Virus record (IMG/VR): IMGVR_UViG_3300046368_000725
Span: 1 to 61,638 of that record
Strand: one strand, 5' to 3'
Source of the DNA: a virus
Length of the DNA stretch: 61,638 nucleotides
The first letter of the stretch is position 1; every line of letters begins with the position of its first letter. Made by a program: the position numbers and the translations under genes. Shown in pieces: positions 5,444 to 61,586 of this stretch. A model generated the notes under the pieces. The model ran no database searches and was not told the DNA's origin. It saw only the letters and a program-made list of their open reading frames with translations.

Positions 5444-6369
5444 GCAAATTCCGTATTTTAGATTATGATATCATTTATCTAAGTTATGACGAGCCAAATG
5501 CAGAAAAAAATTATGCAGATTTGTGTAGTAAAGTTCCTTGGGCTAAACGTGTGCATGGAGTCGAAGGCTCAGACGCTGCACACAAGGCTTGTGCCGAACT
5601 AAGCGAAACTGATCGCTTTATTACTATTGATGGCGATAATATTGTTAATGCAGAGTTTCTTGGCAGAGAGTTTGATTTAGATTCACACGAAGATGCACAT
5701 TGGAATAAGGCAATTAAGTTTGAAGACTGTGTAGTAAGTTGGAGTGCAAAAAACACTATCAACGGATTAATGTATGGCAATGGCGGTATTAAGTGTTGGC
5801 CTAAAGAAAAAGTGCTTAACATGCGCACACATGAAAATGCAGACCCAAATAATCCACATGCACAAGTTGACTTTTGTTGGGATATGGAATATATCCAGAT
5901 TAATCAGTGCCACAGTGAAATTATGAATAATCATACACCACACCAAGCATGGCGTGCCGGATTTAGAGAAGGTGTTAAAATGGCACTTGATAGAGGCATG
6001 AAGCCTAGTGTAGATGCGTTTAAGAAAAATCATTGGAAAAACTTACACCGATTGTATGTCTGGCTAATGATTGGCGCAGATGCAGAAAACGGACGTTGGG
6101 CAATATACGGTGCTAGAGAAGGCTTATACAAAACAATGTGTACAGATTGGGACTTTGTAAATGTTCGTGACTTTGAATGGCTCAATCGGTATTGGGAATC
6201 GTTAGAAGTAACTGAAGAAAATCTAAATGAAACAATTGAAGAACTTGGAAGTATGTTAATTAACGAACTTGAAATTCCGATTGCCGAAGAATGTCTAAAT
6301 GCACAGCAAAGTCATTTCTTTAAAACACTATATCAAAATCCGTCAAGGATACCACGCAAAGGTCGATAA
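5440..6369 (+). CDS. Putative glycosyltransferase with DGD motif
   Basis: 309 aa. The core reads YDIIYLSYDEPNAEKNY near residue 8, then KRVHGVEGSDAAHKA, then FITIDGDNIV near residue 65, where DGD is the likely metal-binding DxD. Further on come NTINGLMYGNGGIKCWP and a C-terminal GAREGLYKTM...DFEWLNRYW region. The same order occurs in the C-terminal 230 residues of the protein at 40056, so the two are clearly homologous. GAGG precedes the ATG. From memory this module is widespread in marine phages. Donor and acceptor are unknown. Confidence 0.6.
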   Translation: MSKFRILDYDIIYLSYDEPNAEKNYADLCSKVPWAKRVHGVEGSDAAHKACAELSETDRFITIDGDNIVNAEFLGREFDLDSHEDAHWNKAIKFEDCVVSWSAKNTINGLMYGNGGIKCWPKEKVLNMRTHENADPNNPHAQVDFCWDMEYIQINQCHSEIMNNHTPHQAWRAGFREGVKMALDRGMKPSVDAFKKNHWKNLHRLYVWLMIGADAENGRWAIYGAREGLYKTMCTDWDFVNVRDFEWLNRYWESLEVTEENLNETIEELGSMLINELEIPIAEECLNAQQSHFFKTLYQNPSRIPRKGR

Positions 6370-7754
6370 TGTCAAATCAAACAGATAGAGTAAAACACAT
6401 TAATGATATTACTACTCGGCATTTTTCGCCGACTTTTTGTTTTGCAAAATGGTATCATACAACAATATATTTACAAACAGGTGAAACACATAGTTGTTAT
6501 CATCCAGCACCACACAAGATCGATGTTGACGAACTGTTAACCAATCCAAGTGCGTTACACAACACCAAACATAAAAAACAAGAACGCAAAGAGATGTTAG
6601 AAGGCAAGCAATGTGTTGGTTGTAACTATTGCTGGAATATTGAAAATATGGGCGATGACTATATTAGTGATAGACACATTCGCAGTGGTAGTATCTATAA
6701 CGAACAACGTTTGCAAGAAATTAAATTTAATCCTTGGGACTTTAATGTAAATCCTGAGTATATTGAAGTTTCGTTTGGTAATGAGTGTAACTTCCGGTGT
6801 AGTTATTGTCATCCAAAAGCAAGCAGTCGCTTTCACCAAGAAATTAGACAACACGGTCCTTACGATATGGCAAAGAATCATAGATGCGATGTTGACTGGT
6901 TTAAAGTATATGAAGAAGACAGCAATCCATATGTACGTGCATGGTGGAACTGGTGGCCTGAAGTTAGTAAAACACTAAACATTTTACGTGTTACAGGCGG
7001 TGAGCCTACGATGCAAAAAAGTACATATAGACTATTTGACGAACTTGAAAAAGAACCTAAGCCAAATCTTGAACTTAATGTAAACAGTAACTTTGGCGGC
7101 AAAGAACGTCAGCTGGCTAAGTTTACTGATAGTGTGAACAGTTTGCTTACACAAAATAAAATTAAATCATTTAAGTTGTTTACAAGTTTAGACACATGGA
7201 ACGAACGTGCTGAGTATATTAGAGACGGACTTGATCTTAATGTGTTTGAACGCAACTTTGATTATTTTATGCAAAGCACAACAGCACCAGTAACATATAT
7301 GATTACGTTTAGTTTGTTTAGTGTAACAACATTTGAAACATTGCTAGAAAAAATATTAGAACAAAGACGTAAGTATAATAATGTAGATAGTGGACGTTGG
7401 CAGCGTATACACTTTGATACTCCTTATCTAAAAGAGCCTTTGCAGCACGATATTAATATTTTGCCTAAAGAAACGTATTTGCCGTACATGGAAAGTCATT
7501 TACAATTTATTAAAGATAACACCAAAGAAGGCAGTAAAGAACATTTTAGCGAAATGGAATATGAAAAGTTTCGCCGAGTAGTTGACTACATGAAAAATAC
7601 AACTTATGATGTAAACAAAGTACGTGAAGGTCGCAAAGATTTTTGGAACTTTTTCAAGGAACATGATCGCAGACGCAATCTCGATTTTGAAAAAACATTT
7701 CCGGAAATGGCAGACTTCTTTGCGCTATGCAAGGAAGCAAATGATACCTTCTAA
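6369..7754 (+). CDS. Radical SAM protein with N-terminal cysteine cluster
   Basis: 461 aa. The [4Fe-4S] motif CNFRCSYC (C140, C144, C147) would bind the cluster that cleaves S-adenosylmethionine to a 5'-deoxyadenosyl radical. TGGEP (209-213) is the glycine-rich SAM-binding motif. Unusually, extra cysteines lie before the radical SAM core (C24, C43, C82, C85, C88) and may hold an auxiliary cluster, as in SPASM/twitch domains but at the N-terminus. It starts within the previous stop (TAATG). It is the first of five consecutive radical SAM genes. The substrate is unknown, but SPASM-type enzymes mostly act on peptides or proteins. Confidence 0.85.
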   Translation: MSNQTDRVKHINDITTRHFSPTFCFAKWYHTTIYLQTGETHSCYHPAPHKIDVDELLTNPSALHNTKHKKQERKEMLEGKQCVGCNYCWNIENMGDDYISDRHIRSGSIYNEQRLQEIKFNPWDFNVNPEYIEVSFGNECNFRCSYCHPKASSRFHQEIRQHGPYDMAKNHRCDVDWFKVYEEDSNPYVRAWWNWWPEVSKTLNILRVTGGEPTMQKSTYRLFDELEKEPKPNLELNVNSNFGGKERQLAKFTDSVNSLLTQNKIKSFKLFTSLDTWNERAEYIRDGLDLNVFERNFDYFMQSTTAPVTYMITFSLFSVTTFETLLEKILEQRRKYNNVDSGRWQRIHFDTPYLKEPLQHDINILPKETYLPYMESHLQFIKDNTKEGSKEHFSEMEYEKFRRVVDYMKNTTYDVNKVREGRKDFWNFFKEHDRRRNLDFEKTFPEMADFFALCKEANDTF

Positions 7755-8907
7755 AGATAATTCATATTGTTATTATCCTTTTAAACAACTTGCTATTAGT
7801 CATTGGAATAGCAAAGGTATTCAGTGTGTAAATCCTTGCTGCAATATGGCAAGTCCGTTGAACCCTGATCCGTTAAACACAGCAAAAGATATACACAATG
7901 ATGTAGAGAAATTATTCGATCTACCGCAACTGCAAAATATTCGTACACAAATGCTAAATGGAGAATATCCAAAGGCTTGCAATGGTTGCTATGAAGCAGA
8001 AAAGCACGGAACTAGTCCTAGACTAATGTTAGATACAAATGTAAACAATGAACTAGAATGGCTAGATATACACTTAGGTAATAAGTGCAATCTTAGATGT
8101 AGAATGTGTCATCCGGCATTGAGCAATCAACTCAACAAAGATGCAGAAAAATTTAAACAAGATGGTTACAAATATTGGTGGGATAGTGTTCCTGATATTG
8201 CTCCGCATGATATTTCTGTGTTGTATCCTGTACTACACAAAATAACAAATATACGTGTCAGCGGTGGCGAGCCTTTGTTATCAAATGAATATTTAGAGTT
8301 GCTGGATTATTGTATAGAAAATAATCTAGCACATAATATTACTTTAGAACTACACACTAATGCTACAAAATTTAATAATGCTAATGTAGATAGATTAAGC
8401 AAGTTTAAACATGTAAATGTTACATTTAGTATTGACGGTGTACGTAAAATTTATGAATATGTGAGATACCCTTTTGCATTTCAAATATTAGAAAATAGCC
8501 TTAAGAATTTTTTTGACAAAGTAAAAAAATATACAGCACAAATTAATTATGTAGTATCTATATATAATGTGTTAGATATACGCAACACACAGTATTGGGC
8601 AAAACAATATCCAATTAACAATTTTATAATTACAAATGTTTTTCCTGCTAAACGTAATATTGATATATGTCATTTACCAATACCAATATTGCTTATGGCA
8701 AGAGAAATGATATTAGATACAGTTTATCAAACTGAAAATCTTGAAAACTACATAGTGCAATGCATGGAAGACAATAAGTACAATGACTACGATAAAGACA
8801 AATGGAAAGAAATTAAAGAAGAAGTAATGCAGTTTGATAAAAATAGAAATCAAAACTATCGAGATTATCTTAATTCTTATATTATTGATTGGTTGGACAA
8901 GATATGA
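7741..8907 (+). CDS. Radical SAM protein, N-terminal cysteine type
   Basis: 388 aa from the ATG at 7741, chosen because AAGGAAG lies just upstream and it gives a normal short overlap with the previous gene; the frame is open further upstream. The motif is CNLRCRMC (C116, C120, C123), with SGGEP in the middle. Pre-core cysteines are C10, C29, C33, C34, C80 and C83. Late in the protein a KNRNQNYRDYLNSYIIDW segment matches the end-region pattern of its paralogues (K/R-x-xN...F/Y...P). It belongs to the family of the genes at 6369, 8904 and 10114. Confidence 0.85.
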   Translation: MIPSKDNSYCYYPFKQLAISHWNSKGIQCVNPCCNMASPLNPDPLNTAKDIHNDVEKLFDLPQLQNIRTQMLNGEYPKACNGCYEAEKHGTSPRLMLDTNVNNELEWLDIHLGNKCNLRCRMCHPALSNQLNKDAEKFKQDGYKYWWDSVPDIAPHDISVLYPVLHKITNIRVSGGEPLLSNEYLELLDYCIENNLAHNITLELHTNATKFNNANVDRLSKFKHVNVTFSIDGVRKIYEYVRYPFAFQILENSLKNFFDKVKKYTAQINYVVSIYNVLDIRNTQYWAKQYPINNFIITNVFPAKRNIDICHLPIPILLMAREMILDTVYQTENLENYIVQCMEDNKYNDYDKDKWKEIKEEVMQFDKNRNQNYRDYLNSYIIDWLDKI

Positions 8908-10121
8908 AGGAAGAACATTTAGGAAATGGAACGTTTTGCATGTTTCCTTGGCTACACTTAAATGTAACACCCAAGGGAGATGTATATCCGTGTTGTAGTA
9001 GCGACTATGTTGAACCTTTTGCTAATGTAAAAGACACAACATTAGAACAAGCATTTAATACTGAACGGATGAAACAGTTGCGACTCGATATGTTAGCTGG
9101 TCGTAAAAACGAAGCATGTACATTTTGTTATAAACACGAAGAAAGTTCTCCTTACAGTTTTAGAAAATATAGTATTGAGAAATTTGCAGACAAGTACGAA
9201 GAATTAGTACCCTATACTAATCAAGACGGCAGCTTAGATAAATTTACAATGGCATATTACGATATACGCTTTAGTAACATTTGTAATTTTAAGTGTAGAA
9301 CCTGTGGCAGTGAATTTAGTAGCAAGTGGGGACAAGAACACAAAGAACACGATGCGCCCCCTCCAGGATTTAAAGTTGTACAACATGCAGATAGTAGTGG
9401 CAAATTATTAGATCAAGTATTAGAACAGATACCTAATATTGAATTAGCATACTTTGCTGGCGGCGAGCCACTTATTACAGACGAACACTATACAATACTC
9501 AATGAAATGATTGCTAATGGTAGTTGTAAAGATATTACATTACGCTACAATACAAACATGAGTAACTTTAGATACAAAAAATACGACATACTTGACATGT
9601 GGAGTAATTTTAAAGAAATTGAAGTTAGTGCTAGTTTAGATCACTTTGGTCCAAAGGCCGAATATATTCGCAACGGTACTCATTGGTTTACAGTAGAAAA
9701 TAATTTACGTACAATTAGAGATGTTGATTTTATCAACTACCAATTCAATTGCGTATTGAGTAATTTAAATTATGTTACACTTGGTGACTTTTTTAGATAT
9801 ATGATTGATAAAGACTTATTACGTAAGCACGATTACATTAGCATTTACCATTTGTTAAATCCTAGTTTTTACAGTGCGCAAAATCTTCCTTTAGAATTAA
9901 AAGAACAAGGCACACTTGGATTATTAAAAGTTATTAATGAAATTAAGGATGACTTTTGGTGTACACAGCATATACAAAATGCATTGAATTTTGCCAATAG
10001 CGATCATACCTGGGAACAAAACGGCAAAGAATTTATACATAATACTGTAAGAAGAGATAAAATACGAAATGAAAATTTTGTAGAAACATTTCCTGAACTG
10101 GCATCAATGATAAATGGATAA
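8904..10121 (+). CDS. Radical SAM protein, FCxxPWxH...CC family
   Basis: 405 aa; the start is the ATG overlapping the upstream TGA (ATGA). The N-terminal signature FCMFPWLHL with GDVYPCC gives C12, C30 and C31, followed by CTFC (C72, C75). The radical SAM motif CNFKCRTC is at C127, C131 and C134, and AGGEPLITDEHY follows. The opening pattern FCxxPW-H-(16)-CC is what databases call a twitch-domain radical SAM protein in phages, from memory. It is closest to the gene at 10114: both share RFSNICN, the AGGEPLITDEHY segment and a terminal ENFVETFPEL/EDFWSTFPEL motif. Confidence 0.87.
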   Translation: MKEEHLGNGTFCMFPWLHLNVTPKGDVYPCCSSDYVEPFANVKDTTLEQAFNTERMKQLRLDMLAGRKNEACTFCYKHEESSPYSFRKYSIEKFADKYEELVPYTNQDGSLDKFTMAYYDIRFSNICNFKCRTCGSEFSSKWGQEHKEHDAPPPGFKVVQHADSSGKLLDQVLEQIPNIELAYFAGGEPLITDEHYTILNEMIANGSCKDITLRYNTNMSNFRYKKYDILDMWSNFKEIEVSASLDHFGPKAEYIRNGTHWFTVENNLRTIRDVDFINYQFNCVLSNLNYVTLGDFFRYMIDKDLLRKHDYISIYHLLNPSFYSAQNLPLELKEQGTLGLLKVINEIKDDFWCTQHIQNALNFANSDHTWEQNGKEFIHNTVRRDKIRNENFVETFPELASMING

Positions 10122-11397
10122 AGATAATTTACTAAAACGCAACAAAGCATTTTGTATTCTTCCGTGGATACATATGCACGCCTGGCCCGATGGCAGGGCA
10201 ATGCCTTGCTGTATTGCGGATAGCGATCAGCCTTTTGGCAATGTTAAAGAAAATAGTATCAAAGAAGTTTGGAATAGTGACAAATACAAAGAACTACGTT
10301 TAGCAATGCTTAATGGTGAAAAACTAGATTGTTGCAGACGTTGCTACGAACTCGAAGATAGTACTTACATCTGGACACTGCGTAAAAATCATAATCAGTG
10401 GTTCGGCGATAAACATTTTGATCTAGTTGAAAAAACAAACGCAGATGGCAGCATTGATGAAATGCGTATGGCGTATATGGATATACGATTTAGTAACATA
10501 TGTAATATGAAGTGTAGAACATGTGGACCTGAATTGAGTAGTCTACACGCACAAGAACATGGCGAGCTATATGGAAAACATGAAGTTGCTAACATACTTA
10601 AAAATAATGGCAGTAATATTGTTAATGTAGCAAAGCACAAAGACTTTTGGAACGAACTACAGCAATACTTGCCAGATGTTGAAGAAGTATATTGGGCAGG
10701 CGGCGAGCCGCTTATTACAGACGAACATTATAAAATATTAGATCATTGGATTGATATTGGTAAAACTGATGTGCGACTACGTTATACAACTAATTTTAGT
10801 AATCTAAGATTTAAACAAAAAAGCATTATTGATTATTGGAAAGAGTTTCCAGATATTCAAGTTAGTGCAAGTTTAGATGCAATGGGTGCAAGAGCTGAGT
10901 TTATGCGGTTTGGCACAGTATGGGATACTGTTGAACGTAATAGACAAGAAATGCTTGAACACTTGCCTAATATTCATTTTGAACTAACACCAACAATAAG
11001 TATGTACAATGCTTGGAACTGGCCCGACTTCCATATGGATTGGGTTGAACGTGGATTGGTTGATATTGAAAATTGTAGATTAAACATGTTAACTGATCCA
11101 GATTTTATGCGTTTAGATAATATTCCAAATGATTATAAGATTGAGTTACGTAGTAAATACATTGACTATAAAGCATGGGCATACGACAAAATTAAAGATC
11201 GCATAGCAAACAATCCAGCAGTAGTAAAAGATGTACTTGGTAAAATTGATAGTGTGATACAATTTATGAACACAGGCGAGTTAAACAAAGATAAATTAAA
11301 ACAGTTCTTTGACAAAAATCATGGACTTGATCAGCATCGTAAAGAAGACTTTTGGAGTACGTTTCCTGAACTAGAGTGGTTAAGAAAATATGTCTAA
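10114..11397 (+). CDS. Radical SAM protein, FCxxPWxH...CC family, close paralogue of 8904
   Basis: 427 aa. FCILPWIHM and AMPCC (C14, C32, C33), CCRRC (C73, C74, C77), then CNMKCRTC (C130, C134, C137) and AGGEPLITDEHY. The shared motifs with the previous gene and similar length point to a recent tandem duplication. It overlaps its neighbours by 8 bp on each side. The pre-core cysteines suggest a second iron-sulfur cluster. Target unknown. Confidence 0.87.
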   Translation: MDKDNLLKRNKAFCILPWIHMHAWPDGRAMPCCIADSDQPFGNVKENSIKEVWNSDKYKELRLAMLNGEKLDCCRRCYELEDSTYIWTLRKNHNQWFGDKHFDLVEKTNADGSIDEMRMAYMDIRFSNICNMKCRTCGPELSSLHAQEHGELYGKHEVANILKNNGSNIVNVAKHKDFWNELQQYLPDVEEVYWAGGEPLITDEHYKILDHWIDIGKTDVRLRYTTNFSNLRFKQKSIIDYWKEFPDIQVSASLDAMGARAEFMRFGTVWDTVERNRQEMLEHLPNIHFELTPTISMYNAWNWPDFHMDWVERGLVDIENCRLNMLTDPDFMRLDNIPNDYKIELRSKYIDYKAWAYDKIKDRIANNPAVVKDVLGKIDSVIQFMNTGELNKDKLKQFFDKNHGLDQHRKEDFWSTFPELEWLRKYV

Positions 11398-12361
11398 CTT
11401 AACAAAAATTACTCCAATGGCAGAACCATATGCTACAATAACGTGGCAAGTAAACAACTTCTGTAATTTTCAATGTACATACTGCAATCCAGGTAATTGG
11501 GCAGGATCAAATCGTAACAACAGTAATCTTGATACATATATGAAAAATGTACGTGGCATATTTCAGCAGTATCAAGACAAAGGATACAAATACTTTAAGA
11601 TATTTTACAGCGGCGGCGAACCTACACACTGGGAAAACTTTATTCCTCTTACAGAATATTTAAAAGACGAATTAGGTGACAATCTTACAGTAGCAGTAAA
11701 TACAAACTTATCACGTCCAGTAAGATATTGGGAAAAGCATTGTCACTTGTTTGACGATATTGTTGCTAGTTTTCATGTAGAATTTTGTAAGAAAGATCGT
11801 TATATTGAAAATGCACAATTTTTATGCAACAAAGTTGACTATCTATGCACAAAGATGTTGATGCACGAAGAGCGCTTTTGGGAAGTAGTTGAATTTGGCA
11901 AACGTGTAAAAGCCGAAGTGCCTAATTACAATTTAGAATGGACACCGTTGTTTGACGAAATGAGTGTTAATGCTGGTCCGTGGCAATACAAAGATCCTGA
12001 TAAAGTAAAATTTTTAGAAGCTGCTCAGTTTGAAACTAAAATATCTATACCAAAGCCGTATAGACAAAACAAAGCAATTAGTAATAGCCATTATGATAAC
12101 GGAACAATTGTGCCAACAAACAGCAACACTATTATTGCTGATAGACAGAACTTCTTTACAGGATGGAAATGCTCTGTTGACGATGCATTGTTTATCAATC
12201 CAAGAGGAGAAATGTCAAGTGCAAGTTGCGGCGTTGGCAACACTCATGGAAATATTTTAGATAAAGACTTGACATTTGACATGAAACCTGTTATATGTAG
12301 TAAACAACACTGTCATTGCGGCACAGATATTATTATACCAAAGGAACCAATTAATGCATAG
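11390..12361 (+). CDS. Radical SAM protein with C-terminal cysteine cluster (SPASM-like)
   Basis: 323 aa. CNFQCTYC lies near the N-terminus (C25, C29, C32) with SGGEP at 74-78. There is no pre-core cysteine cluster. Instead cysteines gather at the C-terminus: GWKC, then SCGVGNTHGNI, then VICSKQHCHCG. This is the ordinary order for a SPASM-like auxiliary domain and marks a second architectural class in the window, shared with 24339, 25246, 29142, 30194 and 52975. It follows the long N-terminal-type genes in the same operon. Substrate unknown. Confidence 0.85.
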   Translation: MSNLTKITPMAEPYATITWQVNNFCNFQCTYCNPGNWAGSNRNNSNLDTYMKNVRGIFQQYQDKGYKYFKIFYSGGEPTHWENFIPLTEYLKDELGDNLTVAVNTNLSRPVRYWEKHCHLFDDIVASFHVEFCKKDRYIENAQFLCNKVDYLCTKMLMHEERFWEVVEFGKRVKAEVPNYNLEWTPLFDEMSVNAGPWQYKDPDKVKFLEAAQFETKISIPKPYRQNKAISNSHYDNGTIVPTNSNTIIADRQNFFTGWKCSVDDALFINPRGEMSSASCGVGNTHGNILDKDLTFDMKPVICSKQHCHCGTDIIIPKEPINA

Positions 12362-14448: not shown

Positions 14449-15225
14449 ATGAACCTGTGTTTTAATAAAAACTATAATTTGTTAGTTGATAGACCTTTTG
14501 TAAATCAAACAGTAAATTTTTATTCTAGCGACGATCAAAAAACATTTAAATTTAATTGTAAAAAATTAAAAAACAAAGACTGGCAATATCACACAGAAAC
14601 TATTGAATATAAGTTTAACAGTCTTGGTCATCGCACAAAAGAAATAGAAAGTCTTGATAAAGATTTTTTACTAACATTCGGTTGTAGTTATACTGAGGGC
14701 GTAGGGTTAAATGTAGAGGATATATGGGCAAGTATGCTTGCAACAAATTTAAAATTAGATTTGTATAATTGTGCTAAACAATCAACTAGCCCTGAAGCGC
14801 AGTATATAAATGCATTGTTATGGAAAAGAAATAATTTACCAAAGCCTAAGCTAGTAGTCTGTCAATGGCCACAAATTGGCAGGAAAATGTTTGGTTTTAC
14901 AAAGCAAGATGATATTGAAATAGCAGACATGAGTGAAACTAAAACGCACGATGGAAGATGGTGGGAAAGACGCTATATTGTTGATAATGGTGAACGTGAT
15001 AAATCTGTTATCCAGCAGATCGAAGGATTTAATTTAGTATGGGAAAGTTTGGGAGTACCAGTAATTAATTTTTCTTGGGAACCTATCGAGATTCCGCTGT
15101 TTACTAAGATACACGAAATCTCTCCAAATACTGGAAATCACGAAGCCCGAGACAGAGAACATGACGGGGTTAACTTTCATATCGAAACACAAAAGTATTT
15201 ACAAACTTTATGTTTCTCTAATTAA
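14449..15225 (+). CDS. SGNH-like hydrolase, N-terminally extended type
   Basis: 258 aa with AGGAG 8-12 nt before the ATG. About 70 residues precede block I (FGCSYTEGVGL, S80). The end has DREHDGVNFH, supplying a possible DxxH catalytic pair. It shares the layout NSLGHR-(10-15)-GCSxT and the RDxxH-type ending with the protein at 43131, so these two form a subgroup distinct from 16232 and 18036. It is a single-gene plus-strand unit between two minus genes. The likely chemistry is ester hydrolysis or acyl transfer; the target is unknown. Confidence 0.55.
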   Translation: MNLCFNKNYNLLVDRPFVNQTVNFYSSDDQKTFKFNCKKLKNKDWQYHTETIEYKFNSLGHRTKEIESLDKDFLLTFGCSYTEGVGLNVEDIWASMLATNLKLDLYNCAKQSTSPEAQYINALLWKRNNLPKPKLVVCQWPQIGRKMFGFTKQDDIEIADMSETKTHDGRWWERRYIVDNGERDKSVIQQIEGFNLVWESLGVPVINFSWEPIEIPLFTKIHEISPNTGNHEARDREHDGVNFHIETQKYLQTLCFSN

Positions 15226-16212
15226 ATCTAATGTACAACAATGGAAACACCCGCCGAGTGTACGTGCATGACGTAGTGGTAGCATAGCACATTCAATACC
15301 ATGTGCTTCTAGTGCTTTACGTGTAGGTTCTTGGTGTTCCTCAAGTGCTACTAAATTAGGATTGACACTAAACAGGTTTACATTCCATGTCCAAATACTA
15401 CTATTGCACAATCCTGGATAATGTCCAGCGTCTACTGCGTCTGGTGCCCAGATAATATCCCAGTCTTTGAACGGTCCTGGGAGATCGTCCTTGCTTTTGA
15501 TACGGCTCGGATTAGCAAGCAATAGCCCTTCACGTAAAAAAGCAATAGTGCTGTCAATGTGCATATAACTATACACATCTTCTAGCGTATGTACTTTGAA
15601 GTTTCCAGGTTCGTCAAAACTACTAGCAGGTTTATTCATCCAGTCTTGCAAGTATGTAGCACCTGCTTTGTTTCCACTATTACTAACCAAATACATAATA
15701 TCATCGTTTGCACGAATAGCATTTGCTGCATCAAAACACGGAGCAGTTTCTGTTAGTGCTAGTTTGTCAGGATCGCCTACACACGACTCGTCATATAATC
15801 CAGTACGATCCGTACGATGTCCTACCTCAATCGGTGCAACTCCAGGCATCAAGTGTTTCCATTCTTCGGCTCTTGCTTCAAGTGCCATAGGCGCAGCTAA
15901 TGCTCGTTTGCCGTGTACAAACACAGTGTCTCTTGGACAGTAGTTGTAATACTTTACATCCTCTGTACGCTGCGGCCTTACAACCTCAACACTTTCGCCT
16001 TCGAGAAACTTTACAAATGTTTCAAGATCTTCGTTGCTTTCGTCAACTACTTGTTGTGGATACAATCCAGGAACAACATCGCTTACATCTTTTCTATCAG
16101 CGTAGTTGATAACTCTTAGACTTTCGTCCATTTCGGGTATACGGCAGTAATCAGCAACGCCGACACAAACCTTCTTTAGTGGATCCCACTCATTGGTGCT
16201 ATAAATACTCAT
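15208..16212 (-). CDS. Amidinotransferase, glycine/inosamine amidinotransferase family
   Basis: 334 aa. Family marks are PRDT (93-96), CFDAAN (159-164), MHIDST (217-222) and the ending GGCFHCCTLDL with the catalytic Cys at C325. The enzymes move the amidino group of arginine to an amine through a Cys-bound intermediate. Length is near the usual 350-390. Its base composition is unlike its neighbours: by hand, 15421-15480 has 32 G+C of 60 against 23 of 60 at 14821-14880, suggesting a different origin. The start sits 4 nt after a late-like box (CTTAAATA). The acceptor could be a sugar amine, glycine or another small amine. Confidence 0.85.
   Translation of the reverse strand: MSIYSTNEWDPLKKVCVGVADYCRIPEMDESLRVINYADRKDVSDVVPGLYPQQVVDESNEDLETFVKFLEGESVEVVRPQRTEDVKYYNYCPRDTVFVHGKRALAAPMALEARAEEWKHLMPGVAPIEVGHRTDRTGLYDESCVGDPDKLALTETAPCFDAANAIRANDDIMYLVSNSGNKAGATYLQDWMNKPASSFDEPGNFKVHTLEDVYSYMHIDSTIAFLREGLLLANPSRIKSKDDLPGPFKDWDIIWAPDAVDAGHYPGLCNSSIWTWNVNLFSVNPNLVALEEHQEPTRKALEAHGIECAMLPLRHARTLGGCFHCCTLDLIRET
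16200..16207 (+). promoter_or_regulatory. T4-type late promoter box TATAAATA
   Basis: An exact TATAAATA lies within the first codons of the divergent amidinotransferase gene. It is 24 nt before the ATG at 16232, with AAGGA between. It should drive the 16232-18851 operon. Confidence 0.7.
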
Positions 16213-19416: not shown

Positions 19417-19448
19417 CACCAGATCTAATAACTATATACTTAATGGAT

Positions 19449-19456
19449 TGTAAATA
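19449..19456 (+). promoter_or_regulatory. Late-like box TGTAAATA
   Basis: A 7-of-8 match to the T4-type late box lies 16 nt before the ATG at 19473. AAGGAG (19461-19466) lies between box and start, so this unit would have a short leader. It should drive the 19473-26280 operon. Confidence 0.5.
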
Positions 19457-19472
19457 CTGTAAGGAGTTAGAC

Positions 19473-39982: not shown

Positions 39983-39999
39983 GGCACTCTCCTATACAT

Positions 40000-40007: not shown

Positions 40008-40020
40008 GGTTTTTTTGGAC

Positions 40021-40049
40021 TTGACATACCGTTTAGAATCATATATAAT
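40021..40049 (+). promoter_or_regulatory. Sigma70-type promoter, leaderless arrangement
   Basis: TTGACA (40021-40026), exactly 17 nt, TATAAT (40044-40049). The ATG at 40056 is 7 nt after the last -10 base, just where transcription should start. There is no ribosome site. It drives the nine-gene operon to 49379. Confidence 0.85.
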
Positions 40050-40055
40050 GTAATT

Positions 40056-44925: not shown

Positions 44926-44935
44926 GTATTATATA

Positions 44936-45487
44936 ATGGAAAATCTAACTACCTATAAAAGTAATAAAAAATTTTTAGAAGAAAGGTACAATCTAATAGC
45001 CAGTGGCACTAATAAAAAAGTTTATTACAACGGTAATAATAATATTGTTTTCAAACTATTTGAAAATCCTAATATATTGGAAGGCGAAATAGTAAGATAC
45101 CAAATACTAATTGAGAACAATATAAACTTTTTTACACCAAAATTAAAAATTGTTAATAAATTTGTTTGTGTAAGTCAATTTGCTGCACCAATAAAATTAA
45201 AAGATAACCACCGAGTTGCTTACAATTATAATATAGCTATTATGGATCCTCAACTTGTATTTCTCAAAACAGATCCAATTAAAAACACAATGTGGAAGAA
45301 TGTTTGCAATGAAACAGTAGATAGTAAAGGACTTACTCCTATCTATAATTGGGGAATTAGGAATAACAAAATATTGCTTTTAGATATAGAAACAATTTTG
45401 CATAATAAGGTAGTTGATTTTTTCAAGGATAGTCAAATTATTGATAAATTTAGAGAAGTAATGCGAGCAGATCAATACTATGAATAA
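44936..45487 (+). CDS. Unknown, weakly protein-kinase-fold-like
   Basis: 183 aa from the ATG at 44936. NLIASGTNKKVYYNGNNNIVFKLFEN near residue 20 resembles a kinase glycine loop followed by the VxK strand, and a later ILLLDIETILHN resembles the DFG-region strand. The catalytic loop is not evident, and the length is short for a kinase. It sits between two radical SAM genes, 10 bp after one and overlapping the next by 8 bp. It might bind nucleotide or the shared substrate; the function is open. Confidence 0.35.
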   Translation: MENLTTYKSNKKFLEERYNLIASGTNKKVYYNGNNNIVFKLFENPNILEGEIVRYQILIENNINFFTPKLKIVNKFVCVSQFAAPIKLKDNHRVAYNYNIAIMDPQLVFLKTDPIKNTMWKNVCNETVDSKGLTPIYNWGIRNNKILLLDIETILHNKVVDFFKDSQIIDKFREVMRADQYYE

Positions 45488-50074: not shown

Positions 50075-51397
50075 ATGGTACTTAATAAATATTTAGTCAT
50101 CTTTCTAAACAACACCGCAGAAATTAAAAACAATAAAATTAAGACTTATTGTCAAAATTTATTGCAATACTGGGCTTTAGAAATCAGTGTTCAAGTAAAA
50201 GTCAAAGTCTTTACATACATGGAGTCAGCATTAGATTTTGTTGAAAATTGGAGTGACCACAAGCATGTAGTAATTATTGATATTGGAAATGATTTAGAAG
50301 TAAATGGACAGTTTATTTCAAAACTAATAGAAAATATTAATGATGACGATGTGCTAGTAGGACATATATTAGATAAACAAGATAGATACTATGAATTACA
50401 CAATCAATGTTTCTATTTTAATGCAGATGTTTGGAAAAGTATAGGATGCCCCGAATATGGTCATAAAGAAAAAAAATTGTTATGCAATGTGCCTTTGAGA
50501 TCTAAACAGAATCATCATGACGATTACACTCCTTATTGGATTGCTCCTGGCACACAAGAGAAGCTTTACACTGATTTAAAACAAGGATACAATTTTATTA
50601 AATCGTTTTTAGATGCAGGCTTTACTATTAAAAGTTTTAACAAAAGTATTCGAGATAGCAAGGCATATTCTTATCCATATGAAATTGACGATCAGTTTCA
50701 AAATATTATTGATTTTAATTTTATTAAAAAATATTATCTATATAACACAGAAAAACAAAGATTGGAACAAATTCCAAATAAAAAAATAAAAAGATTTGCA
50801 ACAGTTTGTGCAGGACTCAATCATTTAAAAGTTTTAAAAGATAAAGGATTTGACAGCGATACAAAATTGCTGTTTTATGATTGGGATGAGTTTAGTGTAG
50901 AAATGATGAAAGCTATATATTATCAATGGAACGGAATAGATTACGAAAATTTTGTAAAAGACACTGCAACTAAATTAAAATACACTGGAACTATTGTTGA
51001 AGATTGTAATAGAGAAAAAGAGTTTTTTGATTTTTTTGGAGGCGAAAAACAATTTCAATCATGGTTTGCTGAACTAAGAGAAACAGTAACTTTTGATTTC
51101 AAACACATAGACATTATGCAATACAATGAAAACACTTTTGAAAAATTCTTTAATGCAAAAGGATTTAAATTATTTTGGTTAAGTAATATTTTCCATTACA
51201 AGCCTACAAGTATAATATATAATTTAGAACAAAGAGCAAAAATACAAGATAGAGTAATTACAGCATTACCCAAGGAAAAGAATATGTTTGTTTTTTCTGA
51301 TAGTTGTATATTAGATCAGTCTAAGATTTTTTCAACACTAGATTACAAAGAGAAAATTATAAATGCAAAACAGACACAGGAAGAGATATTAGTATGA
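50075..51397 (+). CDS. Unknown protein, paralogue of 26240
   Basis: 440 aa. Shared with 26240: the N-terminal YLVIFLNN strand, HNQCFYFNADVW, HHDDYTPYWIAPG, and WLSNIFHYKPTSIIYNLEQR. A middle stretch KRFATVCAGLNHLKVLKDKGFDSDTKLLFYDWD resembles a second nucleotide-binding half (strand, Gly turn, helix). It may be a two-domain glycosyltransferase, though no metal motif is visible. It is followed by a 2OG oxygenase gene with ATGA overlap, repeating the association with that enzyme class. Confidence 0.5.
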   Translation: MVLNKYLVIFLNNTAEIKNNKIKTYCQNLLQYWALEISVQVKVKVFTYMESALDFVENWSDHKHVVIIDIGNDLEVNGQFISKLIENINDDDVLVGHILDKQDRYYELHNQCFYFNADVWKSIGCPEYGHKEKKLLCNVPLRSKQNHHDDYTPYWIAPGTQEKLYTDLKQGYNFIKSFLDAGFTIKSFNKSIRDSKAYSYPYEIDDQFQNIIDFNFIKKYYLYNTEKQRLEQIPNKKIKRFATVCAGLNHLKVLKDKGFDSDTKLLFYDWDEFSVEMMKAIYYQWNGIDYENFVKDTATKLKYTGTIVEDCNREKEFFDFFGGEKQFQSWFAELRETVTFDFKHIDIMQYNENTFEKFFNAKGFKLFWLSNIFHYKPTSIIYNLEQRAKIQDRVITALPKEKNMFVFSDSCILDQSKIFSTLDYKEKIINAKQTQEEILV

Positions 51398-52146
51398 AAG
51401 TAAACTTTGGAAATCACAACATAGATAAAATTGATTTAAATTTTCACAAAACAAACTTTGAAAAAATATTAAAGTCTAAAAATGCAAAAATTACAGGTGC
51501 AAATGACCTTAATAGATTTTGTAAAATCGAACCGCATGAAGAAAATAAAAAATTAAAGAACTTTTTTAATGAGTGCTTTGATGTAAATTTAGATTGGGGA
51601 TTAGAATATTTTCATAGTGGCGAGCCTGCAGGTTTGCATACTGATTATGACAGACAATATTATAATAAGGCTGACTGCTGGGAAGGCCGAAATGGAGAAA
51701 TGACACATTACAATGAAATTGTATTAGGTGTTATAATACCCTTAGATTGGAATAGTAGACAACCTTATACTATAAATTATGACAAAATAGCTACTGAGCC
51801 TCGAAAGCTCATGTACCGACAAGGGGAAATGCGTTATAAAGATACAAATGAAGTTGTTGATTATCGAGGATCGCCGAATTGGTGGGAATGGAAATATGAT
51901 CAGGAAGTTTTAAAATACAATCCCATTGGAAGCGGATATGTTGGAGAGTATGCAAATTTAAAAGTTGATAGTGTTTATAAATGGGAATTAGGAACAATGA
52001 TGTTGTTTGATCCAGCAAGGTGGCACAGTAGTAGTTGGTTCTTATCAACAAGAAAAATACCAGACAATTTTGAATCATCGGTAGAATATAAAAGAGCAAT
52101 AATAGGGTTTGGTACTAAGAATGTTGAAATAGGTACAAAGAAGTAA
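51394..52146 (+). CDS. Putative 2OG-Fe(II) oxygenase
   Basis: 250 aa. HTD (H82, D84) in GEPAGLHTDYDRQ, then a distal His near residue 210 in DPARWHSSSWF and an Arg-containing final strand KRAIIGFG. The strand VLGVIIPLDW precedes an insert of about 70 residues rich in Tyr and Trp. It shares the HTD-(18-22)-(I/L)PLD pattern with 55513. It ends just before a hairpin that may terminate the transcript. Confidence 0.6.
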   Translation: MKVNFGNHNIDKIDLNFHKTNFEKILKSKNAKITGANDLNRFCKIEPHEENKKLKNFFNECFDVNLDWGLEYFHSGEPAGLHTDYDRQYYNKADCWEGRNGEMTHYNEIVLGVIIPLDWNSRQPYTINYDKIATEPRKLMYRQGEMRYKDTNEVVDYRGSPNWWEWKYDQEVLKYNPIGSGYVGEYANLKVDSVYKWELGTMMLFDPARWHSSSWFLSTRKIPDNFESSVEYKRAIIGFGTKNVEIGTKK

Positions 52147-52974: not shown

Positions 52975-54087
52975 ATGACAGAAGATTTAAAATGGTCAAA
53001 TTATGACTTTACAAAAATACCCTTTGACGACATTGTTAGTGTTGGTCAGCGTACCCTGTTGTATCGTGATATATTTACTGTTAGTTGGCTCCTTGGAAGG
53101 TTCTGTAATTACAAATGCTCCTACTGCTGGCCTTATGCCCGCAGCGACCGTAAGGATCACCGTCCTACCGAACTATGCACACGGACCATAGATGAAATAA
53201 AGAGGCAAGCACGTGAAAACGGATTTAATAGTTATCATTTTAGTCTTAGTGGCGGTGAGCCTACTTTCCATCCTGGCTACTTGGACATTCTACAGCATCT
53301 GGCTGATGACGTAGACAATACTAACTATACCAGCGTACACATGACTAGTAACTGTAGTCGTAACATGCGTTGGTTTGAGCAGTATGTAGAAGCAGTAAAG
53401 CCGTTCCACCGTGCAAGCATTACAGCAAGTTTGCACACAGAGCACTTAAATACAAAGGAGAAGATGCAGGAGTTCGCAGACAAATTAATCCTGTGTCAAG
53501 AACACGATGTACAAGTTACAATTAATATGGTTATGGTTCCAGACTGGTTTGAACGAGATTGGGAAAATGCCCTGTTCTTCCACGAGCAAGGAATCAACGT
53601 CACACTCAAGCCGCAATCAGACCCTACTGCTAGTAGGGTGGTTGATGGATACAAACCGGAGGACCTAAAACGTTTACACAACGGCATGCCACAACGTGCG
53701 TACACAGAAAGCAAACGCAAGTGGGAAGGTCGTCCTAAACCAACATTTGAAATACCTACAGGTGTTGATGGAAAGCTGGACACTACTATACCGTGGCACA
53801 TGCAAATTGAAATGAAAGATGCTAACGGCAAAAACTGGTATATGGATCAAGCAGAACGTTTTAATGCATTTAACTTCAACAACTTTAAAGGTTGGAGTTG
53901 TAATGCAGGATATCAGGGTATTATTATTAGAGAACCTGATGGCAGTGTTAAACGCAGTTATAGTTGTCACGATGTACCACTTGGGAATATTGAAACAGGA
54001 TTTAAACTGTTTGATAAAGCTATGCCTTGTATAACAGGTAGTTGTGTCAGCAGTGCTGATAGCAAAATTCCTAAAAGGAAGTTATAA
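52975..54087 (+). CDS. Radical SAM protein with C-terminal cysteines
   Basis: 370 aa. CNYKCSYC (C44, C48, C51) follows a 40-residue N-terminus; SGGEPTFHPGYLD; ASLHTEHLNTK. A middle insert (KRKWEGRPKPTF) separates the core from FKGWSCNAG, SYSCHDVPLGNIE and PCITGSC. The DNA is richer in G+C than its surroundings: by hand 30 of 60 bases at 53101-53160 against 17 of 60 at 54181-54240, suggesting separate acquisition. The start lies directly after a sigma70-type promoter. Confidence 0.86.
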   Translation: MTEDLKWSNYDFTKIPFDDIVSVGQRTLLYRDIFTVSWLLGRFCNYKCSYCWPYARSDRKDHRPTELCTRTIDEIKRQARENGFNSYHFSLSGGEPTFHPGYLDILQHLADDVDNTNYTSVHMTSNCSRNMRWFEQYVEAVKPFHRASITASLHTEHLNTKEKMQEFADKLILCQEHDVQVTINMVMVPDWFERDWENALFFHEQGINVTLKPQSDPTASRVVDGYKPEDLKRLHNGMPQRAYTESKRKWEGRPKPTFEIPTGVDGKLDTTIPWHMQIEMKDANGKNWYMDQAERFNAFNFNNFKGWSCNAGYQGIIIREPDGSVKRSYSCHDVPLGNIETGFKLFDKAMPCITGSCVSSADSKIPKRKL

Positions 54088-55511
54088 TGGCAAACTTTAT
54101 TATCTTTGCAGGAATGCAGGAACCAGAACATTATGCTGTACGTTCCGGCGGACAATATCAACTTGCCTCGTGGTTACGTTCTTTTGGGTATACTGTAAAA
54201 GTAATAGACTTTTGTTTTAAGATTAGCCCTAACATTTTAGAAGAAATAGCTAACAAACATGTTGACGAGAATACACTTGCATTTGGAGTAAGTACTACTT
54301 TTTGGAATATTGACGTAGTTGTACATGATGGAGTAAAAATCGGCGGCATTTGTTGTCCTAAATGGGTAACACATTTAAAAGAAAAGTTTCAACAAACACA
54401 TCCTAATATAAAATGGGCACTTGGAGGATCAAACTCGTATTCTAGTGTAATAGACGATAACGACTGGATTCGTATACATCAGTTTGCAGAAGATGAAACA
54501 CTTGCAATGTTAGATACCTTATCAAACAAAATAGAAGTGCGTCCACTATTTAATATACAAAATTTTACACGAAAGTATCACAATGATGATGCTATTCAGC
54601 CCTATGAAACATTAAGTATTGAAATAAGCAGAGGGTGTATATTTAAATGTAAGTTTTGTCAGTTTCCTTTAATCGGTCGAAAAAAAGGAACTAATATAAG
54701 GCGTGAAGAAGATATTCGTACAGAGTTATTACAAAACTATCAGCAGTTTGGTACTACCAAATATTATTTTAGCGATGATACATTTAATGAAAGTTTGGAT
54801 AAAGTACAAATGATTCATCGTATTAGTAAGTCTTTGCCATTTGAGTTAGAATATGTTGCTTATTTAAGAATAGACTTATTAGCAGCTAATCCTGAAATGA
54901 TAACTTTACTTCCTGAATCTGGATTGCGCAGTGCTTTTTTTGGCATTGAAACTTTTCAAACACAGGGTGCAAAAGCAATAGGAAAAGGATGGAACGGACA
55001 AAACGCAAAAGCCTTTTTGTTAGAACTAAAAAAAGAATGGAAAGATAAAACAAACTGGTGGATGGGAATGATTGTAGGTTTACCAGGGTGGAATAAAGAA
55101 CAAGAAGAAATAGATTTACAATGGATGATAGATAATGATATGAGTTGCTGGTGGCATTGGGCATTATACATTAATCCTATTAATGTCGAAGACGGCTCTC
55201 CGTTTGTAAGCGAGTTTGAAAAAAACTATGAAAAGTATGGATACCAGTTCACAGATGATAATCTTGTTAACTGGGTAAATGGTGATTTAGTACATACTGA
55301 GTTAGTTCAAGTAGCACTTGATTTAAACGACAAGTCTTTTCAGTACAAAAAAGTTGCTGGATTTCGAATAGGAGAATTTAGTACGTCTTTACAATGCTCA
55401 ATGGCAGATCTTGTAAATGTATACGAGATAGACGTATCCTACGATTTGTTATTGAATAATACAAAACAGTTTGTAAATAAATATATCGAATGCCAGTTGC
55501 AGGAAACCTAA
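54087..55511 (+). CDS. B12-binding-like radical SAM protein
   Basis: 474 aa with AAAAGGAAG before the ATG. The N-terminal 150 residues form a Rossmann-like domain (SGGQYQLASWLRSFGYTVKVIDF, FGVSTTFW, WALGGSN) as in cobalamin-binding radical SAM enzymes, but the DxHxxG cobalamin motif is not seen. The core motif CIFKCKFC (C184, C188, C191) follows SIEISRG, the form used by the Elp3/MiaB-like B12 class. LRSAFFGIET and GMIVGLPG are further class marks. The paralogue is at 60063. The reaction could be a methylation or ring change. Confidence 0.82.
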   Translation: MANFIIFAGMQEPEHYAVRSGGQYQLASWLRSFGYTVKVIDFCFKISPNILEEIANKHVDENTLAFGVSTTFWNIDVVVHDGVKIGGICCPKWVTHLKEKFQQTHPNIKWALGGSNSYSSVIDDNDWIRIHQFAEDETLAMLDTLSNKIEVRPLFNIQNFTRKYHNDDAIQPYETLSIEISRGCIFKCKFCQFPLIGRKKGTNIRREEDIRTELLQNYQQFGTTKYYFSDDTFNESLDKVQMIHRISKSLPFELEYVAYLRIDLLAANPEMITLLPESGLRSAFFGIETFQTQGAKAIGKGWNGQNAKAFLLELKKEWKDKTNWWMGMIVGLPGWNKEQEEIDLQWMIDNDMSCWWHWALYINPINVEDGSPFVSEFEKNYEKYGYQFTDDNLVNWVNGDLVHTELVQVALDLNDKSFQYKKVAGFRIGEFSTSLQCSMADLVNVYEIDVSYDLLLNNTKQFVNKYIECQLQET

Positions 55512-59630: not shown

Positions 59631-60066
59631 ATACATTACATTTTTAGACATACAAGAAATTTGGAAAAAACATCTCTGGCCTAACAGAAAAGAAATATTG
59701 CCAATGAGTAATATGAGATATGAGGATATACCTTATACTAGTATAAGTAAAAAATATACTCCGACTTTTTTTGCTTATATTGTCGATGGCGAAATAGCAG
59801 GAGTTAATAGCGGACATTGCAGTAGTAGATTTCACTATAGGAGTAGAGGGTTGTTTGTATTTCCTCAATATAGAAAAAAAGGAATTGGCACAAAGTTGTT
59901 GAAACATGCTTGTTATCTTGGACGCAACGCAGAAATGGTTTACTGTTGGAGCCTGCCAAGGAAAGTTGCATTAGAAACTTATTTAAATGCTGGTTTTGAA
60001 CAAACAAGCAAGTTTTTTGAAACTGAAACTAGCGAACAGAACTGTTATGTGATTAAACCAACATGA
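59623..60066 (+). CDS. GNAT acetyltransferase (TTG start)
   Basis: 147 aa from a TTG at 59623 with AGGAG 6 nt upstream. VDGEIAGVNSGH is the central strand, LFVFPQYRKKGIGTKLLKHA carries the acetyl-CoA loop RKKGIG, and ALETYLNAGFEQTSKF is the usual C-terminal element. Length is normal. It overlaps the dehydrogenase and B12-type radical SAM genes. It probably acetylates an amine on the operon's product. Confidence 0.8.
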   Translation: MIEYITFLDIQEIWKKHLWPNRKEILPMSNMRYEDIPYTSISKKYTPTFFAYIVDGEIAGVNSGHCSSRFHYRSRGLFVFPQYRKKGIGTKLLKHACYLGRNAEMVYCWSLPRKVALETYLNAGFEQTSKFFETETSEQNCYVIKPT

Positions 60067-61586
60067 TTTATGATGTAGTGCTATTTACAGAATGCAATGG
60101 TAGTATAGGTTGGGGCAGAGATGCAGGCGCCTACACAGTTGCCAGCAGACTACGTGAAACAGGACACAACGTTAAAGTTATAGATTTCTTTAGTCATTTT
60201 ACTGAAGAACGGTTTAAACGTGCTATAGATTTATATGTAAGCAAACAAACAAAGTTTCTAGGATTTAGTAGTACACATTTTAGTACACTAATGCCAGAAG
60301 ACTGGGAAACACATTGGAGTGCAGATAGTAGAACACGCAAAAGTAATATGTGGAATGTATACTTTCCTTTTTCACCAGAAGAAGTTTCTAAATGGTTTGA
60401 TAATGCAAAAGCCAAATATCCTAATATAAAGATAGTTGTAGGTGGCCAGAAGGTTGCACAAAAAAGAGCATTGCAAAAAAAGTATCCTATGGTAGACTTA
60501 TGGGTAGGAGGTATGGCCGATAAAAGTGTGTTAGGATTAATGGAACAGTTTCCTGACACCAACTTTGTTAAGTCAGAACTTGATTATGGTAGCATGACAG
60601 AGCAAGAGTTTAGGTATAGTAAAATACATTGGACTGACGATGACTACATATTTCCACATGAAGCACTACCATTAGAAATCAGTAGAGGTTGTCCCTTTAA
60701 CTGTGCCTTTTGTGACTACCCTAAAAAAGCAGTAAACAGTTGGACCTTGGACGAAACACATTTGCGAGATGTACTAATAGAAAACTACGAACGTTTTGGT
60801 ACACAGCACTACATGATTACCGATTATCAGCTCAACGAAAACATGCGAAAGATGAGTCTAATACACAATGTATTTACTAACCTACCTTTTGATATTACAT
60901 GGAGTGGTTTTGGCAGACTTGATTTGTTATACCAAAAGCCTGAAATGATTAGTATGATACAAGAAAGTGGCTGCCGCAGTATACAATGGGGAATAGAAAC
61001 AGTTACAGATCAGGTAGGGCCTCTTATAGGCAAAGTAACCAAACGTTATATTATCGAAAGTGCATTAGAACAATGTAAAAGTGCATGGGGAGATAGTATA
61101 GTACAAGGCAGCGGATTCATACTAGGATTACCAGGAGAAACAAAGTCTAGTTGTATTGAACTAGTAGATTGGATTAGTACACAGCCATGGCTTGATGCTT
61201 GGGAGATAACTCCTCTATATATTGGCGGATATGATCCTAACAAAGAATATACTATTGATTATAGTAGAATACAACGCAATCCTGAAAAATACGGATACAC
61301 AGTTACACTTGAAAAGAATGCAAACGGCATATATGTTGAAGACTGGAAAAACGGTGACATGACAAAGTCAGACATGATAAATATTATCGAGCAAGCACAA
61401 AAAGGTACTGCTTGGCAAAAACGTATTATGACATCATATTTAGGATACAGTCGTGCTAGTAATTTAAGATTTACACACAGTGAGATTATTAGTGCAGATA
61501 AAAATAATACAACATGGATTAGACAACACGCTAATAATTATAATCAACTAGCAAATGAATATTTAAGGAAAAATAACTTATTATGA
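60063..61586 (+). CDS. B12-binding-like radical SAM protein, paralogue of 54087
   Basis: 507 aa. N-terminal Rossmann-like half (GRDAGAYTVASRLRETGHNVKVIDF, FLGFSSTHF, KIVVGGQK) without a DxHxxG motif. Core CPFNCAFC (C210, C214, C217) after PLEISRG, then CRSIQWGIET and GFILGLPGET. It lines up with 54087 throughout. Overlaps the next gene by ATGA. Confidence 0.84.
   Translation: MIYDVVLFTECNGSIGWGRDAGAYTVASRLRETGHNVKVIDFFSHFTEERFKRAIDLYVSKQTKFLGFSSTHFSTLMPEDWETHWSADSRTRKSNMWNVYFPFSPEEVSKWFDNAKAKYPNIKIVVGGQKVAQKRALQKKYPMVDLWVGGMADKSVLGLMEQFPDTNFVKSELDYGSMTEQEFRYSKIHWTDDDYIFPHEALPLEISRGCPFNCAFCDYPKKAVNSWTLDETHLRDVLIENYERFGTQHYMITDYQLNENMRKMSLIHNVFTNLPFDITWSGFGRLDLLYQKPEMISMIQESGCRSIQWGIETVTDQVGPLIGKVTKRYIIESALEQCKSAWGDSIVQGSGFILGLPGETKSSCIELVDWISTQPWLDAWEITPLYIGGYDPNKEYTIDYSRIQRNPEKYGYTVTLEKNANGIYVEDWKNGDMTKSDMINIIEQAQKGTAWQKRIMTSYLGYSRASNLRFTHSEIISADKNNTTWIRQHANNYNQLANEYLRKNNLL

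Follow-up and report, generated by a model that had tools for sequence, protein, structure and literature searches.

A conserved radical SAM cassette within a nineteen-gene radical SAM island of a T4-like phage

The stretch of DNA analysed here (the window; 61,638 bases, IMG/VR record IMGVR_UViG_3300046368_000725) contains 64 called genes, nineteen of which encode radical S-adenosylmethionine (rSAM) enzymes. All nineteen, proposed in a preliminary description made from the sequence alone, are supported by profile searches: PF04055 matches at 19 places with E-values from 7.7e-7 to 1.2e-18, 17 of them above the Pfam cut-off, and the two proteins below it (g09 and g12; Table 1) score 299 and 393 bits against the NCBIfam model N_Twi_rSAM (NF033640), whose cut-off is 170 bits. 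The cluster motif CxxxCxxC is present in all nineteen; GGE[P/S/T] is found in 15 and GNxGD in two (g31 and g46), with neither form in g56 and g64. The four layouts that had been distinguished stand. Nine long proteins have cysteines ahead of the core; eight exceed the N_Twi_rSAM cut-off (230-422 bits), the ninth, g50, being a relative rather than a member at 134 bits, and the SPASM model scores above its cut-off near the N-terminus of five. Six short proteins have aligned C-terminal cysteines, two carry CQAxCPMC, and two are B12-like; as had been noted, long and short types adjoin each other. For the B12-like pair the rSAM fold is borne out and the B12 domain less so, PF02310 reaching 22.1 bits in g64, under its cut-off of 32.1, and giving no match in g56; their scores of 61 (g56) and 77 bits (g64) also place them outside the PhpK P-methyltransferase family (TIGR04479, cut-off 600). 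A suspected third B12-like gene, of which the window holds only the start, is complete in the longer contig described below (585 amino acids (aa), rSAM domain 55.4 bits), and one gene start given earlier, 48222, is an internal ATG of the open reading frame (ORF) 48195-49379.

The entire window lies within G002, a 170,115-base IMG/VR contig, and matches it as a single block of 61,638 bases at 99.997% identity. We therefore see no sign of the chimeric contig that the preliminary description had named as a danger, and reject it as far as this alignment can test it, since a shared sample or assembly error could mimic the result. That description had also taken the genome to be that of a phage, and indeed G002 holds T4-type virion genes: a gp23-type capsid gene at its very end (PF07068, 60 bits, first 46 residues only), a portal gene (phrog_213) and a baseplate wedge gene (phrog_10646). 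On one side the island is bordered by tail-fibre genes and by the gene for a 4581-aa protein, an 899-aa N-terminal piece of which matches a virion structural family; on the other are found two large genes, one of which matches tail-fibre and baseplate-connector families. The window itself has no capsid gene, and its assignment to a T4-like phage comes through the capsid, portal and baseplate genes of G002, because of which we take it to be, in all probability, most of the hypervariable tail-fibre island of such a phage, known in marine T4-like phages as the "host recognition cluster". A mis-binned bacterial polysaccharide cluster is rejected because of the T4-type virion and fibre genes beside the island.

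A recurring gene order emerged from 33 loci found with g49, some of them truncated and several from the same phage: g08, g44, a 76-residue ORF, g46, g48, g49, then g53 and g55, with other genes inserted along the way. Of these, g49 (the query) is present in 31 loci, g46 and g48 in 29 each, g44 in 23, g53 and the 76-residue ORF in 19 each, g55 in 16 and g08 in 15. The phage copies of g46 (22 aligned rows) are 51-89% identical to that of the window. In three phages with virion genes in common (G017, G015 and G020), g48 (84, 86 and 92% identity to the window copy) and g55 (87, 84 and 85%) are more conserved than the portal protein (54, 69 and 69%); g46 (65, 63 and 73%) and g49 (65, 79 and 73%) are roughly at portal level, and some core genes match the conservation of g48, for example 46031-47026 (63, 84 and 83%). 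Among the four closest pairs, the ratio of nonsynonymous to synonymous substitution (dN/dS) lies at 0.02-0.12 for g46, g48, g49 and g55, many of the pairs having a dS of about 1 or more, and the cassette is thus under purifying selection. Fusions occur as well: in other phages, proteins of 1008-1058 aa combine g08- and g44-type domains (L025 2516-5689, L027 4274-7297 and L033 2-3136), which suggests that the putative transferase-like and methyltransferase-like parts have been joined in some of them.

Beyond the cassette, the neighbouring genes differ strongly between phages. One could therefore suppose that there is no single pathway and that a hypervariable stretch has gathered enzyme cassettes that are unrelated to one another, whether or not each serves a purpose of its own; Timms 2010 likewise describes the rSAM clusters in CP220 and in CPt10 as modules that can be interchanged (PMC2853527). 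The kept order of the core cassette, its purifying selection and the co-occurrence of three of its genes in Bdellovibrionia (below) speak against this, and we consider it the least probable of the explanations weighed here.

The 76-residue ORF had been overlooked when it was stated that no precursor peptide was evident, although nothing marks it as a substrate. It is 57-77% identical to the window copy in 24 relatives (25 aligned rows), is conserved over its full length, and has invariant residues that include W43, Y44 and H38; its dN/dS is 0.15-0.28 in the four closest pairs. AlphaFold predicts three helices (mean predicted local distance difference test score (pLDDT) 85.6), a fold with no match in PDB or BFVD at E 0.001, and no relative was found in GenBank phage records at E 0.01. 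In systems for ribosomally synthesised and post-translationally modified peptides, the precursor peptide lies beside the maturase, usually with a recognition domain. It is conceivable that the rSAM enzymes, together with the oxygenases and halogenase of the island, modify a protein or peptide, be it the 76-residue protein (as precursor, or with that protein as carrier or adaptor), a tail fibre or a host protein. The conserved ORF sits between g44 and g46 in 19 of 33 loci, Twitch/SPASM layouts are typical of peptide maturases, relatives of Asp/Arg hydroxylases (27363, 49368 and 56214) and the halogenase can act on amino acids, and the island lies among fibre genes. However, conservation along the whole length is unlike most precursor peptides; a PqqD-type recognition domain (Pfam) is present in none of the 64 window proteins; the ORF was undetected (tblastn, E 1e-4) in several phage loci with g44 or g46 and g48 (L012, L015-L018, L024, L026 and L029, for example) and in Bdellovibrionota loci; and in Bdellovibrionia the trio described below occurs without it and without fibres. 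Among 32 loci from bacterial assemblies it is seen only in L098, L112 and L113, all with phage-like gene order. As it went undetected in several cassette loci and in the Bdellovibrionota loci, the rSAM trio does not require it, and we regard modification of a protein or peptide as unlikely, if the most serious of the alternatives.

A supply of S-adenosylmethionine (SAM) may travel with the cassette. PF02773 reveals a SAM synthetase in G002 (42318-42722, E 2e-59), and the domain is present in 12 of 33 contigs, namely 12 of 21 with the cassette and none of 12 without g55. With duplicates merged and only contigs of at least 59 kb retained, the contrast is 7 of 13 against 0 of 12 (p 0.004). A ferredoxin-like gene was also noticed in G002 (3664-4005), from a cysteine pattern read by eye.

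Three cassette genes have a second home in Bdellovibrionota. A search of genome contigs for g48 orthologues gave 32 confirmed loci, many of them titled Bdellovibrionales, Bdellovibrionia, Bacteriovoracaceae or Halobacteriovoraceae; g48 matches at 50% or more in 26, and 15 of these also have g46 (at least 40%) and g55 (at least 50%) in the same locus. Seven of the 26 (L098, L099, L112, L113, L119, L120 and L122) branch among the phage sequences in the g48 tree, several with phage-like gene order, and so may be phage contigs within metagenome-assembled genomes (MAGs). One of them, L122, a 139,884-base contig of a Bdellovibrionales MAG with relatives of g48, g55 and, from the fibre side, g02, g04, g05, g06 and g08, is possibly a phage of Bdellovibrionales. 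In the 143 genomes of Bdellovibrionia, the class of L106, g46 is present in 17, g48 in 13 and g55 in 15 (cut-offs E 1e-60, 1e-100 and 1e-60, respectively). All 13 genomes with g48 also hold g46 and g55, and in 11 of them the three genes share a contig and lie less than 7 kb apart (Fisher p 1e-15 to 1e-16, shared descent being ignored). The trio is therefore independent of phage tail fibres. The g48 tree makes Bacteriovoracaceae/Halobacteriovoraceae sequences the sister group of the phage clade, which is nested in Bdellovibrionota (99/97); the root of the tree is unsure because the outgroup branches are very long (2.9-10 changes per column). The tree supports probable gene transfer between phages and Bdellovibrionota, its direction being unsettled for the same reason.

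Table 1. Positions of cassette genes, other enzymes and virion genes in the window, with the evidence for each
Feature	Coordinates	Strand	Evidence
g44 methyltransferase-like	41959..42927	+	26% to annotated methyltransferase of Pelagibacter phage Mosig, E 7e-18
Conserved cassette ORF, 76 residues, TTG start, overlaps g44 end	42914-43144	+	tblastn; 25-row alignment
g46 cassette rSAM, CQASCPMC / GNLGD, C-terminal cysteines	43846..44925	+	PF04055 37.5 bits
g48 cassette N-Twitch rSAM	45480..46886	+	NF033640 422 bits; 20-row phage alignment
g49 cassette N-Twitch rSAM	46883..48229	+	NF033640 372 bits; 33 related loci
g53 2-oxoglutarate (2OG)-Fe(II)-oxygenase-like by motif	51394..52146	+	invariant HxD...H in 12 rows
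g55 cassette rSAM, SPASM-like C-terminal cysteines	52975..54087	+	PF04055 59.4 bits; 11-row phage alignment
g05, g06 glycosyltransferase-like	3200..4871	+	no Pfam match; joint profile vs glycogenin (GT8) weak, E 0.0047
g08 glycosyltransferase-like	5440..6369	+	DGDN motif (putative); no Pfam match
g17 StrB1-type amidinotransferase	15208..16212	-	phmmer to 1bwd, E 5.3e-52, 180 bits, residues 6-332
g21 short DegT-family aminotransferase relative, 200 aa	18817..19419	-	PF01041 51.8 bits
g22 NAD-dependent sugar epimerase/dehydratase	19443..20384	+	PF01370 132 bits, PF16363 126 bits
g38 flavin-dependent (tryptophan-type) halogenase	34471..35886	-	PF04820 223 bits; PDB relatives incl. viral VirX1
g09 N-Twitch rSAM	6369..7754	+	NF033640 299 bits
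g10 N-Twitch rSAM	7741..8907	+	NF033640 230 bits; PF04055 37 bits
g11 N-Twitch/SPASM rSAM	8904..10121	+	NF033640 377 bits; SPASM 43 bits, residues 12-75
g12 N-Twitch/SPASM rSAM	10114..11397	+	NF033640 393 bits; SPASM 50 bits, residues 14-78
g13 short rSAM, C-terminal cysteines	11390..12361	+	PF04055 30.4 bits; aligned cysteines
g26 N-Twitch/SPASM rSAM	22963..24342	+	NF033640 396 bits
g27 short rSAM, C-terminal cysteines	24339..25256	+	PF04055 43.6 bits
g28 short rSAM, C-terminal cysteines	25246..26280	+	PF04055 33.5 bits
g31 rSAM, CQAKCPMC / GNFGD	28142..29170	+	PF04055 37.1 bits; motif
g32 short rSAM, C-terminal cysteines, exact start uncertain	29142..30251	-	PF04055 62.9 bits
g33 short rSAM, C-terminal cysteines	30194..31090	-	PF04055 42.8 bits
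g34 N-Twitch/SPASM rSAM	31078..32424	-	NF033640 316 bits
g50 N-Twitch-like rSAM	48195..49379	+	NF033640 134 bits (cut-off 170); PF04055 56 bits
g56 B12-like rSAM	54087..55511	+	PF04055 53 bits; best NCBIfam PhpK 61 bits (cut-off 600)
g64 B12-like rSAM	60063..61586	+	PF04055 48 bits; PhpK 77 bits (cut-off 600); PF02310 22 bits (cut-off 32)
Third B12-like rSAM, start only (window end)	61583..61638	+	whole in G002 60314-62071 minus, 585 aa, PF04055 55 bits
Tail-fibre/virion gene, C-terminal part	150..809	+	phrog_22593, tail fibre phrog_19602; 497 aa whole in G002

Several enzymes of the island have relatives in sugar chemistry or small-molecule metabolism. The amidinotransferase g17 scores higher against StrB1 (180 bits) than against HsvA (119) or arginine:glycine amidinotransferase (91), and its full-length similarity to StrB1, including the C-terminal FHC(x)TLD stretch, makes it a probable StrB1-type enzyme. 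Phages carry homologues of g08 next to the cassette, as do several Bdellovibrionota loci. The halogenase g38 adjoins a short adenylating enzyme (34471-36851), and nitroreductases are also encoded. The AMP-binding enzyme (35883-36851, 322 aa), the aldehyde dehydrogenase (58650-59630, 326 aa) and the DegT relative (200 aa) are all below the usual lengths of their families. A second small locus outside the main island (G002 36788-41422; L035 16788-20000 and L036 1-1422), read by eye, has a further StrB1-like amidinotransferase gene together with one for an epimerase-like protein and one for an rSAM enzyme of N-Twitch-like type. Elsewhere in G002 (43934-45510; L036 3934-5510), genes resembling GTP cyclohydrolase and QueE, also read by eye, hint at a possible 7-deazaguanine DNA modification. 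Rfam and tRNA searches found nothing in the window, a tRNA search found none in G002, and bases 1-25000 gave no direct DNA match to GenBank phages.

The island could instead make a small diffusible metabolite of aminocyclitol or guanidino type, directed at competitors or at the physiology of the host. The StrB1-type amidinotransferase, the adenylating enzyme, the aldehyde dehydrogenase, the nitroreductases and the halogenase would all fit, and phage CP220 likewise pairs rSAM enzymes with an amidinotransferase, to which g17 is 23% identical. Among the 64 genes of the window, however, we recognised none for a carrier protein, for export or for resistance, and gene content beyond the cassette varies between phages; we find such a metabolite quite improbable.

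The likeliest of the explanations, with chances that we consider evenly poised, is that the island encodes a carbohydrate-modifying pathway used in infection and acting on a surface or virion glycan; that there is one pathway, that its substrate is a carbohydrate and where its product goes are matters we infer. Sugar-activating and sugar-transferring enzymes would supply and place the sugar units, which the amidinotransferase, aminotransferase, epimerase and methyltransferase-like enzymes would decorate, while the Twitch/SPASM rSAM enzymes, with their extra iron-sulphur clusters, may carry out oxidations, epimerisations or deoxygenations beyond the reach of ordinary enzymes. The heart of the pathway would be the cassette (g44, the 76-residue protein, g46, g48, g49, g53 and g55), and its product might coat the infected cell, changing a receptor and excluding other phages, or the phage fibres. 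A glycan or metabolite is favoured over a virion protein because a PqqD-type domain is absent, because relatives of StrB1, an aminotransferase and an epimerase are present, and because the trio occurs in Bdellovibrionia. The preliminary description had listed a glycan among its candidate targets, a choice that the sugar-type relatives favour; its remark that enzymes of this kind act mostly on peptides or proteins is not decisive here for the same three reasons.

Several observations weigh against a glycan. SPASM/Twitch rSAM enzymes are best known for acting on peptides. The glycosyltransferase labels are often weak (Table 1 for g05, g06 and g08), the short DegT relative g21 has no PDB match at E 1e-4, and g44 and g53 have no Pfam match and none in a PDB profile search at E 0.1. 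The genes g17, g21 and g22 lie outside the common cassette and have orthologues mainly in G008, so that their evidence bears more on the island than on the cassette. The latter is itself accessory, not essential (below). A structural comparison (VIA-align) with a modest g48 model left peptide enzymes (CteB and SkfB), MoaA and sugar enzymes (BlsE and DesII) tied as the closest folds at Z 9.1-8.8; confidence in the model is low (pLDDT below 50) at residues 145-161, around the cluster loop, and the comparison decides no function. As for the SAM synthetase, the contigs are fragments of unequal size, which may bias the contrast, and among 50,697 GenBank phage records the enzyme is present in 135, mostly of Streptococcus phages, with no link to the cassette.

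If the glycan pathway is real, much radical carbohydrate chemistry lies unexploited in uncultivated marine phages, among which the conserved cassette is small enough for expression and testing; the trio in Bdellovibrionota offers a second, cellular setting for finding its product. Relatives of g55 were not found in the 50,697 GenBank phage records, yet at least 518 are confirmed in uncultivated viral contigs, and phage culture collections therefore miss this chemistry. The nearest GenBank phage relatives found for g48 and g49 are two annotated radical SAM genes, 22% identical, of Vibrio phages K566 and K567 (OZ196521 and OZ196593; ~161.6-165.3 kb). Bdellovibrionota include bacterial predators, and a bolder extension would make g46-g48-g55 a portable unit that has moved between them and marine T4-like phages and that, with transferase- and methyltransferase-like partners, chemically re-marks, in both groups, either the attacker's own surface or that of the cell it invades, so that a second attacker is kept away, for instance, by a new chemistry in which several radical enzymes act in turn on one glycan. 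We hold this to be a long shot.

The window stands towards the high end of a continuum and is not unique. G002 has 21 PF04055 matches in all, G008 has 19 in 57 kb and G007 has 18 in 66 kb, and 20 contigs retrieved with g49, a biased set, have 4-22. Fourteen contigs of at least 59 kb, taken from the 80 best portal relatives irrespective of rSAM genes, have 16, 1, 0, 0, 2, 6, 12, 0, 0, 0, 0, 4, 6 and 2 (median 1.5, range 0-16), which places the window at that upper end. Only two of the fourteen have g55, and the idea of the cassette as an essential gene set is accordingly rejected. Any claim that such density is without precedent calls for moderation: a 2010 report on T4-like Campylobacter phages gives 11 rSAM genes for CP220 and 12 for CPt10, with a five-rSAM cluster beside a putative glycine amidinotransferase (PMC2853527). 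In the open-access literature searched, we found no account of a near-fixed-order cassette of this kind, of its association with SAM synthetase, of the co-occurrence of g46, g48 and g55 in Bdellovibrionia, or of a StrB1-type amidinotransferase with sugar enzymes as a pointer to glycan tailoring.

Comparison with individual known systems places each part of the island. Against streptomycin StrB1, an inosamine-phosphate amidinotransferase, g17 aligns over nearly the whole protein, although no other streptomycin-type gene set was identified. The halogenase g38 belongs to the same flavin-dependent family as the cyanophage iodinase VirX1 (6qgm, E 9e-27) and is closer to other tryptophan halogenases (9luq, E 1e-42). 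Eight of the nine long rSAM proteins fall in NF033640, a family without assigned function, many distinct members of which are gathered here in a single locus. In CP220 the annotation (NC_027997) places sugar-transferase-like genes and a tail fibre near the rSAM cluster; its amidinotransferase resembles g17 (E 4e-19) and its gp083 resembles g46 (24%, E 6e-15), whereas its rSAM genes are fewer and no N-Twitch cassette is found among the 11 proteins compared. The pelagimyophage host recognition cluster, an island of variable content that includes tail fibres and lies between VrlC and the neck gene gp14, contains glycosyltransferases and rSAM cassettes (PMC7029224); the present island is likewise hypervariable, has rSAM and glycosyltransferase-like genes, and on one side adjoins tail fibres and a very large virion protein, whose likeness to VrlC is one of size and position only. 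Pelagibacter phage Mosig EXVC030M (MT647606) encodes Asp/Arg hydroxylases, nitroreductases, an aminotransferase, an epimerase, a methyltransferase and, by annotation, three molybdenum-cofactor enzymes, and has homologues of g14, g22, g25, g31, g44, g54 and g60; the window is set apart by its 19 rSAM genes and by the g44-g46-g48-g49-g53-g55 cassette, the matches of Mosig to g44 (26%) and g46 (22%) being distant and none reaching E 1e-3 for g48 or g49. The island is thus of a known kind in an extreme form, with the conserved cassette as its new part and with an unexpected link to Bdellovibrionota.

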